A model generated the notes under the pieces. The model was given only the letters and a program-made list of their open reading frames with translations. It searched no databases and had not been told where the DNA came from. Made by a program: the position numbers and the translations under genes. A stretch of DNA of 43,962 bases, from assembly GCA_035530055.1 (NCBI GenBank), contig DATKVN010000021.1, forward strand, positions 1-43,962, read 5' to 3'. Each line of letters begins with the position of its first letter. Within the stretch, counting starts at the first letter, position 1. Positions 1,831 through 35,979 of the stretch are shown here, in pieces. The DNA is from a bacterium (GTDB lineage Bacteria > UBA6262 > WVXT01).

Positions 1831-2277
1831 CTATTTTAAAACGACAACCTTTACGGTCTTTGAAGATTTACCAATTTTGAGATTGACCAGATATACTCCG
1901 CTTCCTACAACCCTGCCCTTATCGTTCCTCCCATCCCATTGTAAGGGCACGGTAGGTTCCATTTCTGTTGTGTTTTCCACTAATGTCCTTACAAGTTCTC
2001 CATTGATTGAATAGACTCTAATAGTTGCTCCTTGTTCGGTCACTTTGTAGTATATCCTGGTGTAGCGATCAGCAGAGTCTGCGGCTTCGGGATTAAAGGG
2101 GTTATTCCATTCAATTCTTAAGACAATTCCGCCGGAAGAACTAAATTGTCCCTCGGGGCGGACTTCTACTAATGCTTCTTCTACCGGTTGTGAAAGCATA
2201 TCTTCCGCCACTGAAGGAAAAGAGAAAAGACTAATTATGAATAGATTAATCAGAATAAACCCAGGCAAATTTCGCAT
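1831..2277 (-). CDS. Secreted protein with C-terminal FlgD-type Ig domain
   Basis: This 148-residue protein has a clear signal peptide (hydrophobic residues about 5-20, then SVAED). It then has a short region with NPFNPEAADS and a C-terminal module of about 70 residues: IRVYSINGELVRTLVE, WDGRNDKGRVVGSGVYLV and a final run ending VKVVVLK. That module matches the FlgD Ig-like fold, which overlaps in pattern with the C-terminal sorting domain of type IX secretion cargo. It ends 9 bases before the start of the PorV-like gene, so the two are probably co-transcribed. It has no catalytic motif. It could be a structural partner of the neighbouring barrel or a small surface protein. The family call is fairly safe but the function is unknown. 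Confidence 0.75.
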   Translation of the reverse strand: MRNLPGFILINLFIISLFSFPSVAEDMLSQPVEEALVEVRPEGQFSSSGGIVLRIEWNNPFNPEAADSADRYTRIYYKVTEQGATIRVYSINGELVRTLVENTTEMEPTVPLQWDGRNDKGRVVGSGVYLVNLKIGKSSKTVKVVVLK

Positions 2278-2304: not shown

Positions 2305-3687
2305 CTAGATGGATCTGAAGAAAGCAATTATCATAAAGTATGAAACTAACATACTGAGAAAACCAACGAGCAGTCCCACCTTTAACCATTGAGAGAAAGC
2401 AATTTTGACATTAAGTTTTTTCTCCAGAATACCCAATGCAACAATGTTTGCAGTCGAGCCTATCATCGTGATATTTCCTCCAAAACAGGCGCCAAACAGT
2501 ATTGCCCACCATACAGGTTTTAAATTGGAACTGAACATATGTAGGCTTTTAACTATTGGGACATAAGAGGCAACAACAACAACATTATCAAGAACACCCG
2601 ACAATAGTCCGCTAGAAAATAGAATTGAACCCAATAGAATCTTTGGATGATTTCCTATAATACCCAAAATTTTCTTTGCCAAAATATTGCCCACACCGGA
2701 TGCCTGGACAACGCCTGCCTGGGCAAATAGGAACATGAAAAATAATAGCGAATTCCATTCAACTTCGTGCTCTACGTAGTATCTTGCCTTATCATGCCGA
2801 TATATCATAACTATTCCTGCAAAAATGACCGGTAGCATTATCAGCATTGAATTCTCGCCCAGCTGAAACAGGATTTCCATTCTCCTGTGTAACGCAATAA
2901 GCAATACCATAACGCCGAAGATTAACATACTGACTTTCGTGCGAAAATCCGGAGGAATAGAAATCAGGTACAAAAAATTCTTATTTTCCTGATGCGTCTC
3001 TAGTTTCAAAGAAATCTCTTTTAAATAACTCCTGTATATTATACACAGAATAAATATGGTGAGACCAAGAGCAAGAATCGACACAGGTAGAGCAAAAGTT
3101 ATGAAGTTTTCAAAAGAGAGTTTGCTACGCGCTGCAATCAGAATCCCTATGGGGTTACCTAATACGGTGGAAGCTGAGCCTATGTTCGTTGCTAACACTG
3201 AGGAAATAACCATTGGCAGAGGGTCAACTTCCAGAAAACTACAGATTTCAAGGATGACGGCCATCATTACAATTATCGAGGAAATTTCCCCCATGAGTCC
3301 TGATAACAACGCCGAAACAAGCATCAAAAGAATAAAAAATTTTCTCCCACTGAGCTTCTTCAATCTTAAAAACATTGTTACCAGCCAATGAAAAAACCCA
3401 GCATCCTTCATCATACCCACCACTATCATCATTCCGATTAGAAAAATAATAACATCCAGGGAGGCGAACTTCATAAAATTTTCTAAGTCGATTGCGTGAA
3501 TCAGAAGAAGAAGACCACTGCCTATGAAAACGAAACTTAATCTGAAATCCCAGAAAAATAGTGTCCCCAGAATTGATACTAAAAAAATAGAGATGATGAA
3601 CGACTGTCTCAGAGAAAAACCAGCAAGGAAACTTAGAATTCCCAAAGTTAAAGAAATCAAAACCATAAATAAGATTTTCTTTGCCAT
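2305..3687 (-). CDS. ArsB/NhaD-type ion transporter (IT superfamily permease)
   Basis: The 460-residue protein is almost entirely hydrophobic with about 11-12 predicted membrane segments. It carries two related half-signatures typical of the ion-transporter superfamily: NIGSASTVLGNPIGI in the first half and GGNITMIGSTANIVALG in the second. Proteins of this group include ArsB (arsenite), NhaD (Na+/H+) and dicarboxylate or citrate carriers. Length and motifs fit ArsB/NhaD best, but the substrate cannot be read from sequence. No arsR or arsC lies nearby, which argues against a dedicated arsenic operon. The ATG lies one base after the stop codon of the 44-residue MnmE-N-like ORF, suggesting translational coupling. 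A role in sodium cycling alongside the probable Na+-ATPase in this window is an inference. Confidence 0.85.
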   Translation of the reverse strand: MAKKILFMVLISLTLGILSFLAGFSLRQSFIISIFLVSILGTLFFWDFRLSFVFIGSGLLLLIHAIDLENFMKFASLDVIIFLIGMMIVVGMMKDAGFFHWLVTMFLRLKKLSGRKFFILLMLVSALLSGLMGEISSIIVMMAVILEICSFLEVDPLPMVISSVLATNIGSASTVLGNPIGILIAARSKLSFENFITFALPVSILALGLTIFILCIIYRSYLKEISLKLETHQENKNFLYLISIPPDFRTKVSMLIFGVMVLLIALHRRMEILFQLGENSMLIMLPVIFAGIVMIYRHDKARYYVEHEVEWNSLLFFMFLFAQAGVVQASGVGNILAKKILGIIGNHPKILLGSILFSSGLLSGVLDNVVVVASYVPIVKSLHMFSSNLKPVWWAILFGACFGGNITMIGSTANIVALGILEKKLNVKIAFSQWLKVGLLVGFLSMLVSYFMIIAFFRSI

Positions 3688-3688
3688 A

Positions 3689-3823
3689 CTACTTCCCTGT
3701 GAAGCAAGCGGCGCCTTTTAAACAAAGTTTGCCTTTTCCGCTTAAGCGCACTATGCCGATGCCACTTTTCCCTATCAGTGTAGAAATTGCCACTATAGCA
3801 TCGTCATCAAAATAGTTCTTCAT
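3689..3823 (-). CDS. 44-residue ORF resembling the N-terminus of MnmE
   Basis: A short open frame between the propeller protein and the transporter encodes 44 residues, starting at the ATG at 3823 behind an AGGGGG ribosome site. Its core, DDAIVAIST then GIGIVRLSGK, matches the extreme N-terminus of the full MnmE at 34498-35979 (EDTIAAIST then FGIVRLSG). In my hand alignment 15 of 23 residues are identical. In MnmE this stretch is the first strand and loop of the N-terminal domain that binds a formyl-tetrahydrofolate cofactor. No GTPase domain follows: a stop comes one base before the transporter ATG. It could be a decayed mnmE duplicate, a coupling leader peptide, or a small functional protein. 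Similarity is clear; function is unknown. Confidence 0.6.
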   Translation of the reverse strand: MKNYFDDDAIVAISTLIGKSGIGIVRLSGKGKLCLKGAACFTGK

Positions 3824-3835
3824 CTTACCCCCTAA

Positions 3836-5986
3836 CTACGGAATAATTTTCTCTTTGGTATTGAAAATCTGAAAGGCTTCGGGAAAAGCTGTGAAATTCA
3901 GTTGAGGCATTATAATTCCCCCATAACTGTTTTGCTCGTCATAGTCGCTTTGCCCGCCCTTTAGATTAGTCGTTGTTTTAATCCATTTAACACTAACAAG
4001 ATTCCCGTTATTATCTTTCTTAAGTTTCCCTTTCCTGATATCCTCAAGCTCGAATACGACCACACCTTTAGTGGATGATTCGGCCATAGTCCGGCCGGGA
4101 TCCTGGGGGCTGGCAAATAAAAAAATCCGGCCATTCTCCTCAACCAAGCTTGAGCCACTAAAATAGTACGCTCCAAATCTTTGGGCATCCTCATTCTTCA
4201 GAAGAGTGCCCATATATCTCCAGGTTTTGCCATGGTCATAAGAAGCAATCAAGATTATCCTGGCTATATTCTGTTTATTAACAAACTTATGGCCTTGCAG
4301 GCTTAGATATAGAACTCCGTCTTTATAAATCGAGCCGGGTTCAGTATATACAAAAAGATCTTTTAAGTCCGGGTGCAACTGGCTCAAATTGATCCTTGTC
4401 TTGTGCGGTTTGAGCGGAAAGGGTCCGGCACCAAATAAAGGTATCTCTTCTGACCATTTTCCTGCGGGGTTGCTTGAATATTTGTATGCAACCCAGCCAT
4501 ACTGAAGCACTCTATTGCCTGCTCCGGCACCTGGATCGTGTTTTGCAAAATATTTATGCCAAAATAATTTCCACTCTTTACCTGGATCATCAGGGTCATG
4601 AACCAGCGTGGAAACCTCGTTCCACCAGGAGCCATCTATTACTTTATTGTTAAGCCTGACCGTGTCATCAACTGAAGAATTAATTGTCTTCACGAACGTC
4701 CATGTTTTACCGTGGTCAAGAGTTTTTGCCAGGTTAGTGCGGATATATTTCGGCGCGTCTATGCTTGAGTACGTCATCCAGCCAACAGAACCATCTTCAT
4801 TATATTCCACTGAAGGGTCATATATGCCGTTAGTGTTAACCTCACCAATAATTTTGATTTTTTCATAATGACCGCCAACTGCCGCCTCTAAATCTGGTTG
4901 CCTTCTGCCCGAAGTGTCTATCTTCCGGGCTGAAAACATAATTCTTGCATCTTTGTCTGAGCCTTCGCCCGGGAAAAAAGAAGGATGGAAATATAAGTAT
5001 TTCCTAGAAAAAGGTGCTTTCCTTCTTCTACTTCCATCGGGACGCATAGTATGGATTTCATTTAACCATTTTCCAGAGTTATAAAGAATTATACGATCAC
5101 AAATCAGTAACCTCCCGTCACTGGACCAGGAAGGCACAGCCTCCAGTGCAACTTTAGCATCTTTGGGAATATATTTTTTAGAAAGGTCCTTTAGTTGTTT
5201 TGTTTCAACATCTACAACTAAAGTATGCCAAATGCCCCTTTGTTTCATTTTACGCATAAAAGCTACTTTAGAGGCATCAGGTGAAAGCTTAGGGTCATTA
5301 TCCTGCATCTCCGCTTTCTTGGGTGTCTGGGCAAGAAGCTCAAGACCGCTGCCGTCATATCTCATTCTCCAAATGCCTCTTTTTCTGTTCTTAATATCCA
5401 TTGCCGGAAACACTACCCACTCACCTACCCAGTGAGGGTCTGTAGGGATAATGTGGTCAGGAATGGGAAGTTTTGTAATTTCTTTTACCTGTATATTATC
5501 ATCGAGAATAATATGGTTAATCTGAGGCCGGCCCTTTTCGTTAGGGCTGGAAACATAGATAATGCCTTTACCGTCAGGAGTCCAGTAGCTGTTTGCCGCC
5601 ATTCTGTCTTTCTGGTGCGGGATTAGCGTCCTCACATCAGTCCCATCTATCCGCATAATCAGGACTTCGGTTCCTAAGTACTGCTGGCCTTTCCTGTCGT
5701 AATTAGCCTCGTTCTCGGTTGCACAACCGTCCTTGCCTCTATTAGTATAGCGGGTAAAAGTAACCCAATTTTTATCCGGTGAAACTCTTGCATGGGTCAT
5801 CTGCTGCCAGGAATTTGTAATTAGCGGCTTCATATTTTTGCCGTCTAAAGTAGCAGTGTAGATACCAAATGCTTCGCTATCAGGGTTATTTTCGCAAAGA
5901 GCTTTCTTGGAATAACCACTAATTAAAGCTACCAGGGCTGTCGTCATAACTATCAGTATTATGACAAAAATATGGTTTTTCTTCAT
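3836..5986 (-). CDS. Exported two-propeller protein (TolB-like N-terminus, sialidase-type Asp-box C-terminus)
   Basis: The 716-residue protein starts with a hydrophobic signal or anchor segment (about residues 5-25). The first half (about 40-370) has repeated units of the TolB/PD40 propeller type: IYTATLDGKNMK, VSPDKNWVTF, WTPDGKGIIYVS, LSPDASKVAFM, WSSDGRLLI. The second half has two Asp-box motifs, TLDHGKTW near residue 423 and SYDHGKTW near 582, as found in sialidase/BNR-type propellers. A region near 544-560 (FVYTEPGSIYKDGVLYLS) reads like another blade. Glycan binding or hydrolysis is possible, but I could not identify the arginine triad of a true sialidase, so enzymatic activity is not claimed. 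It precedes the MnmE-N-like ORF by 12 bases and follows tRNA-Ser by about 20 bases. Confidence 0.75.
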   Translation of the reverse strand: MKKNHIFVIILIVMTTALVALISGYSKKALCENNPDSEAFGIYTATLDGKNMKPLITNSWQQMTHARVSPDKNWVTFTRYTNRGKDGCATENEANYDRKGQQYLGTEVLIMRIDGTDVRTLIPHQKDRMAANSYWTPDGKGIIYVSSPNEKGRPQINHIILDDNIQVKEITKLPIPDHIIPTDPHWVGEWVVFPAMDIKNRKRGIWRMRYDGSGLELLAQTPKKAEMQDNDPKLSPDASKVAFMRKMKQRGIWHTLVVDVETKQLKDLSKKYIPKDAKVALEAVPSWSSDGRLLICDRIILYNSGKWLNEIHTMRPDGSRRRKAPFSRKYLYFHPSFFPGEGSDKDARIMFSARKIDTSGRRQPDLEAAVGGHYEKIKIIGEVNTNGIYDPSVEYNEDGSVGWMTYSSIDAPKYIRTNLAKTLDHGKTWTFVKTINSSVDDTVRLNNKVIDGSWWNEVSTLVHDPDDPGKEWKLFWHKYFAKHDPGAGAGNRVLQYGWVAYKYSSNPAGKWSEEIPLFGAGPFPLKPHKTRINLSQLHPDLKDLFVYTEPGSIYKDGVLYLSLQGHKFVNKQNIARIILIASYDHGKTWRYMGTLLKNEDAQRFGAYYFSGSSLVEENGRIFLFASPQDPGRTMAESSTKGVVVFELEDIRKGKLKKDNNGNLVSVKWIKTTTNLKGGQSDYDEQNSYGGIIMPQLNFTAFPEAFQIFNTKEKIIP

Positions 5987-6006: not shown

Positions 6007-6096
6007 TGGCGGAGAGAGGAGGATTCGAACCTCCGATCCCGAAATCGGGATAGCGGTTTTCGAGACCGCCCCGTTCAACCACTCCGGCATCTCTCC
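6007..6096 (-). tRNA. tRNA-Ser (anticodon CGA), CCA encoded
   Basis: On the minus strand the gene folds as a class II tRNA. The acceptor GGAGAGA pairs with TCTCTCC, the anticodon stem GCGGT/ACCGC encloses the loop CTCGAAA (anticodon CGA, reading UCG), and a long variable arm pairs TCCCGA with TCGGGA. The T-arm is GGAGG-TTCGAAT-CCTCC. The discriminator is G, as expected for serine, and CCA is encoded. The long variable arm and G73 support the identity. Confidence 0.95.
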
Positions 6097-34497: not shown

Positions 34498-35979
34498 TTA
34501 TTTGCCTATACAGAATTTGGAGAAGATTCTACTTAAAATATCTTCAGTGGCAGTCTCTCCCACAATTTCTCCCAGCGCCTTCAGTGCCCGGCGTAAATCG
34601 AGGGCTATAAATTCTTCCGACTCTCCCCTCCCGCAAGCTTCTATTCCCTTTTTTAAGGATTCTTCAGCTTTTACCAGAGCATCTTGATGCCTAACGTTTG
34701 TAACCAGAACAGCATCAGAGATACTCACTTCTCCCTTAATAAATAGATGGTAGATTAGCTCTTGTAAATCTTTTATTCTTGTCTTTTTGGTTGCTGATAC
34801 TTTAATTAAAGGCGGGTTTCTCAGAATAGAGGGATTGCTTAAACTGTCATGTGCGGGGTTAGCTGAATTAACCGATAATGATTCTTTTTCGGGCTCAAGT
34901 CGATTAAGGCAAGATGCCCACAGTTCTCTTATTTCTCCCTCAGATACCACCTGGGGAAGGTCACATTTATTAGCCACTAAGATTGTTTTCCTGCCCAGTA
35001 GGTTTTCTGCGATATGACAATCCTCTTCGCTCAAGGGTATCGATAAATCGATTACAAAAAGGACAAGGTCTGCAAGTGCAATAGCCCTTCTCGTCCGTTC
35101 TATCCCTGCCATTTCAATTTCATCCCGGGCACGTCTGATTCCCGCGGTATCCATAATCTTCATGGGAATGCCGAGAATATTAACCATATCTTCAACCACA
35201 TCTCTGGTCGTTCCCGGAACAGGAGTTACAATCGCCTTATCCTCTTCAAGAAGCACGTTCAACAGGGAGGACTTCCCCACATTAGGCTTGCCCACTATGG
35301 TTGTCTGCAAACCTTCTCGTAAAATTCTTCCTGATTGCGCAGACTTCAGAAGTTCTTTTAACTCCCCGGAGAGTTTCTCCATCCTTTCCGCTAATTCTCC
35401 TCGGGAAAGATGGGGAATATCCTCTTCAGAATAGTCGAGGCAAGCTTCAATGTGGGCCAGAAGGTCTACTATACAGTCACGAATCCTGTTTACAGTTATA
35501 GATAAGTGTCCTTCCATCTGGTGGAGTGCACAATTCAGGGCGGCGTCAGTTCGAGACCTGATTATATCACAGACTGCCTCGGCCTGGATAAGGTCTATTC
35601 TGCCATTTAGGAAAGCTCTCAGGGTGAACTCCCCCGGCTCTGCTAACCGGGCACCTTCCATTAAACATAATTCCAGAACCTTGCGCAGGGGAACTATCCC
35701 CCCATGGCAAGAAATCTCTGCCACATCTTCACGGGTATAAGTATAAGGCGCCCGCATCACGCTGAGGAGAACTTCGTCTACCAATTTTTCTCTATCGTAG
35801 ATGTGTCCATAATGGATGGTAAATGTGTCTACCCCGGCTAAATTCTTCTTCCTTTTGGGAATGAACAGTCTCAGCACAATGGGGATAGCCTGGCTTCCAC
35901 TTAAGCGGACAATGCCAAATCCGCCCTCCCCCATTGGAGTGGAGATGGCAGCAATTGTATCCTCTGTATCAATGTTCAA
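34498..35979 (-). CDS. mnmE: tRNA modification GTPase MnmE (TrmE)
   Basis: The 493-residue protein works with MnmG to modify the wobble uridine of certain tRNAs. It has the formyl-THF-binding N-domain (ISTPMGEGGFGIVRLSGS), a helical domain, and an inserted G domain with G1 GKPNVGKS (231-238 region), GTTRD, DTAGIR and NKCD. The C-terminal catalytic motif CIGK is intact. A low-complexity stretch of about 40 residues (NRLEPEKESLSVNSANPAHD and onward) lengthens the end of the G domain. The start is a TTG with AGAGAGG upstream. The usual partner mnmG is not in this window. Confidence 0.96.
   Translation of the reverse strand: MNIDTEDTIAAISTPMGEGGFGIVRLSGSQAIPIVLRLFIPKRKKNLAGVDTFTIHYGHIYDREKLVDEVLLSVMRAPYTYTREDVAEISCHGGIVPLRKVLELCLMEGARLAEPGEFTLRAFLNGRIDLIQAEAVCDIIRSRTDAALNCALHQMEGHLSITVNRIRDCIVDLLAHIEACLDYSEEDIPHLSRGELAERMEKLSGELKELLKSAQSGRILREGLQTTIVGKPNVGKSSLLNVLLEEDKAIVTPVPGTTRDVVEDMVNILGIPMKIMDTAGIRRARDEIEMAGIERTRRAIALADLVLFVIDLSIPLSEEDCHIAENLLGRKTILVANKCDLPQVVSEGEIRELWASCLNRLEPEKESLSVNSANPAHDSLSNPSILRNPPLIKVSATKKTRIKDLQELIYHLFIKGEVSISDAVLVTNVRHQDALVKAEESLKKGIEACGRGESEEFIALDLRRALKALGEIVGETATEDILSRIFSKFCIGK

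Follow-up and report, generated by a model that had tools for sequence, protein, structure and literature searches.

A 44-codon open frame directly upstream of an ion transporter gene is probably what is left of the 5′ end of a second, divergent mnmE gene (called X below) that stood at a variable, tRNA-linked site. The frame lies in the window, by which we mean the full stretch of 43,962 nucleotides that was analysed; this stretch makes up an entire contig (C21) of an unfinished bacterial genome (G000, 106 contigs). The initial annotation had read the frame as a mini-gene for the extreme N-terminus of MnmE with its own ribosome site, and had offered a coupling leader, a folate-sensing peptide or a pseudogene as explanations. 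The description holds, and the comparison with related genomes favours the last of these explanations.

Table 1. Features of the window that bear on the short frame
Feature	Position	Strand	Basis or remark
FlgD-like/T9SS-tail protein	1831..2277	minus	right conserved flank in 3/3 congeners
CitMHS/ArsB-type ion transporter, 460 aa	2305..3687	minus	PF03600, 8e-58
Stop-start junction, ACAGGGAAG-TAG-T-ATG	3685..3700	minus	sequence
44-codon open frame	3823->3689, stop included	minus	residues ~1-33 like the MnmE N-terminus, last ~10 codons not
SD-like site with the small frame's start	3821..3835	minus	TTAGGGGGTAAG-ATG, GGGGG site before the ATG
PD40/BNR propeller/sialidase-like protein, upstream of the small frame	3836..5986	minus	profile matches
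tRNA-Ser(CGA), left boundary of the variable stretch	6007..6096	minus	immediately upstream of the propeller gene
Complete resident mnmE, TTG start	34498..35979	minus	98-99% identical to mnmE of G001/G003

A short frame that resembles the start of MnmE

The frame translates as MKNYFDDDAIVAISTLIGKSGIGIVRLSGKGKLCLKGAACFTGK. Residues 10-33 match the Pfam model TrmE_N (PF10396) with E=3.6e-5 and 24.4 bits, a score that lies below the gathering score of 29.8 and comes from a very short match, covering only positions 2-25 of the 117 in the profile; the NCBIfam MnmE model matches with E=0.003. Set beside MnmE/TrmE (PF10396, TIGR00450), the frame starts at the same position and has the same first ~30 residues, including all of those that are invariant in this segment (I, A, T, R, S and G), and the resemblance is lost past about residue 30-35. 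The frame lacks the remainder of the folate domain as well as the helical and G domains of MnmE, so it cannot be an MnmE, and it falls short of the N-terminal folate-binding/dimerisation domain (~117 aa) too. The C-terminal FC[IV]GK of MnmE is also missing from the 44 residues, which end in ACFTGK.

Within the core of the frame (DAIVAISTLIGKSGIGIVRLSG), 15 of 22 residues are the same as in the resident MnmE, where the initial annotation had counted 15 of 23. The DNA differs at many sites, as had also been said: 22 of the 66 core bases are different, 4 of them at first, 2 at second and 16 at third codon positions. When the same number of base changes was placed randomly in the core in 5000 trials, 13 residues were altered on average, and no trial altered seven or fewer. 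The likeness to MnmE is therefore real and of the protein type, and these trials together with the TrmE_N match rule out chance resemblance. The base composition of the frame is in line with that of the window.

Where the sequence came from is a separate matter. Recent copying from the resident mnmE is ruled out, since one third of the core bases differ although the resident copies of G000, G001 and G003 are 98-99% identical. The best matches to the frame are full-length MnmEs from other lineages, led by one from G082 (MKKYLEDDIVAISTPLGHSGIGVVRLSG), which is 65% identical over 35 residues and has a similar start, MKxYxxDD; identity to the resident MnmE is 56%. The resident MnmE and all of its congeneric counterparts have a GGFG motif that the small frame lacks. 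Against every MnmE compared, the core differs at the third position in 14-17 of its 22 codons, which indicates divergence inside a functional MnmE. No clearly closer match came from a donor search in the phyla of G082 and G035, and ~30 MnmE-like residues would not support a tree. G000 holds no second copy of the small frame, as protein or as DNA, and no other piece of mnmE.

Scored in a profile of real MnmEs, the core reaches 63.9 bits, within the range of 55.0 to 79.5 bits that real MnmEs give when each is left out in turn (mean 71.4, sd 6.1). This counts against reading the frame as a stump to the extent that decay is not directly visible, but a score in the MnmE range also fits the recent truncation of a divergent mnmE and does not by itself point to selection after truncation. 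The protein-type pattern of differences shows constraint while the segment was inside an MnmE and not necessarily since it was cut. The initial annotation had suggested either old but constrained sequence or a recent truncation.

The tRNA-Ser locus in related genomes

The frame appears to be confined to one genome. The small-protein search covered 116 genomes at E<=10 and 386 genomes at E<=1e-4 and located the frame in G000 alone. At the latter threshold none of the 385 other genomes had such a short frame; every other match was to an ordinary mnmE, in a frame no shorter than 449 codons. It is missing from the three congeners (G001, G002 and G003) and from two order-level relatives (G004 and G005). 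A profile of 26 MnmE N-termini, in which the small frame is itself included so that its own score there is circular, was run against 107 genomes and gave no further clear short orphan frame; it also picked up a 155-aa frame near a contig end (G037) and one of 222 aa (G026). A recurring class of MnmE N-terminal mini-frames is thus unsupported by this search. Plasmid and phage records yielded ordinary mnmE matches or weak hits only, and the literature searched on mnmE with leader peptides and coupling held nothing relevant. It had been proposed that homologous loci lacking the frame would mark it as a decaying remnant only, and their lack of it here does favour a remnant, part of a longer gene with no counterpart at the equivalent site in relatives.

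The same site can be followed through the congeners. In G001 and G003, tRNA-Ser(CGA) is followed by ~140-155 bp of intergenic DNA and then by the FlgD/T9SS-tail orthologue, with the propeller gene, the small frame and the transporter all missing. G002 (whose contig matches WVXT01000035.1, MAG CS1-C068) has kept the propeller gene, which is followed by a ribosome-binding site and ATGA (TTAGGGGATAAATGA) and then by the backbone. Sequence shared by G000 and G002 runs past the propeller stop up to TTAGGGG[A/G]TAA(G)ATGA; beyond the ATGA, G002 switches to TGATTCACAG..., the backbone sequence found behind the tRNA in G001. Because the shared stretch ends at the ATGA, G002 retains the small frame's ribosome-binding site and ATG but not its body. 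The small frame and transporter together form a segment of ~1.5 kb that is present in G000 only and fits exactly between the conserved flanks, with no spare DNA on either side. Between G000 and G002, DNA identity is 87% in the C-terminal half of the propeller gene and 86% in the backbone (against G001 and G003, G000 shows 92-99%), and this equal divergence indicates a locus of long standing in the genus, whose members have eroded it in different ways.

The simplest history would place X behind the propeller gene, within the variable stretch beside tRNA-Ser(CGA). This old propeller-X stretch would have been lost whole in G001 and G003 and trimmed to the ATGA in G002. In G000, a rearrangement of the stretch would have cut it about 33 codons into X, removing the body of the gene, and an alien transporter gene would have been joined at that point. 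We infer a complete mnmE for X, an origin in another lineage and a recent truncation. An alternative that accommodates the same data is that the small frame and the transporter entered G000 together, the left junction falling at the ATG by coincidence. The reading as a stump of X also has to contend with several observations: no relative has a full or partly deleted second mnmE, the donor match tops out at the 65% given above, and the frame is intact and fits tightly to both neighbours, neither of which a decaying remnant needs.

Gene remnants linked to tRNA genes offer a parallel, as they too occur in one genome, in a variable stretch 3′ of a tRNA gene, and as a partial gene copy; here, in contrast, the frame is open and has a good start, and neither a recombinase nor a repeated tRNA end was found. 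None of the genes from tRNA-Ser to the FlgD-like gene is a recombinase, and no repeat of the tRNA end was found flanking the insert, so that both marks of an integrative element are absent from the tRNA-Ser locus. The mnmE gene is tied to genome plasticity in elements of the SGI1 type, and SGI1 uses the 3′ end of mnmE (trmE). The present case differs in that only the 5′ end of mnmE is involved and no recombinase is nearby; a mobile element at the start of mnmE is ruled out by the lack of a recombinase and of repeats.

Further features were noticed in related sequences. The propeller gene of G002 (L050:19-2370) joins a different N-terminal half, itself repeated, to the 87%-identical C-terminal half, which is a modular rearrangement. 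An Omnitrophota MAG (JAUWBJ010000006.1, L063:5495-7621) has a 66% homologue of the propeller N-terminal half, itself repeated and without the sialidase-like C-terminal half, and a nearby gene (L063 8551-9591) looks like a tyrosine integrase by eye. G003 has a 2.16-kb tandem repeat (L059:3906-8143), real or an assembly fault, that doubles the FlgD-like gene, a 148-aa gene and parts of their neighbours, with one porin-like copy truncated. A GC-rich element of ~100 bp, AGC[AG]ACGGGCGCGAGA..., lies behind the tRNA in G001 (L060:4470-4590) and behind the propeller gene in G002 (L050:2390-2510) and occurs also at L059:1055-1070; it is missing from the window and looks like a dispersed repeat.

The junction with the transporter and possible roles of the frame

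The small frame ends in TAG, and one T separates this stop from the transporter ATG at 3687, as the initial annotation had noted. The transporter's own SD-like site, AGGGAAG, overlaps the final codons of the frame (T-G-K-stop). The downstream gene had been called an ArsB/NhaD-type transporter, and by its profile match it is a CitMHS-type ion transporter; the ArsB and MamN models match it as well, but under their cut-offs. Its closest relatives found are 38-39% identical, it was not found in the named genomes searched, and it is missing from the equivalent place in the three congeners.

Given this arrangement, a functional coupler has to be considered, in which a strong start and the stop-start junction, by setting the translation of the transporter, are the reason why the frame persists, the peptide being irrelevant. 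An adjacent stop and start with an SD site inside the upstream frame are what a translational coupler or leader would have, as are a short frame and a ribosome-binding site of its own, and no terminator-like site was found between the genes. The two genes also make up a segment with no DNA to spare. The frame differs from known coupled upstream ORFs and leader peptides in having no conservation, no unusual RNA structure and no sign of regulation. A coupler would be expected to recur in related operons, but the frame is in no relative, and without a conserved orthologue there is no sign of selection. The RNA has no unusual structure (z=-0.8) by which the transporter start would be hidden, short spacing is common in any operon, and the transporter SD could suffice alone. 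We consider such a role unlikely. A related reading, in which the 5′ end of a second mnmE was domesticated as a small coding unit that sets transporter translation, appears improbable. The position of the frame would allow the coupling leader first proposed, but comparison with relatives lends it no support.

The remaining explanations fare worse. A single internal deletion of a full mnmE might have turned its own last codons, FCIGK-stop, into the present tail, and both tails do end in GK-stop with a Cys nearby; in register, however, only G and K agree, GGG-AAG doubles as the transporter SD and so accounts for them, and there is no further C-terminal likeness, which makes this very improbable. 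An MnmE-derived peptide that regulates or senses folate, the latter suggested by the initial annotation, could draw on the retention of every segment-invariant residue, but folate binding in MnmE is at the interface between two N-terminal domains (PMC2749940), and about one fifth of one such domain is left here in a frame that no relative has; folate sensing is unsupported, and either role is very unlikely. An assembly chimera, for which the unfinished state of the genome gives some room, is very unlikely, as both flanks are collinear with the congeners, the junctions fall at gene edges and the base composition does not stand out.

If the frame is the stump of X, as we favour, translation from its own start codon probably continues. 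Ribosomes that end at the TAG could restart at the ATG one base on, and the frame may thus passively couple the transporter to the operon, by position only; the encoded peptide probably has no activity of its own.

A short frame that is well conserved and has a good start can pass for a purposeful mini-gene and yet most likely be a leftover in a single genome, and empty sites in close relatives help to decide between the two. The tRNA-linked locus is a clear example of how a ribosome-binding site and ATG may outlast the gene that they served, as in G002.
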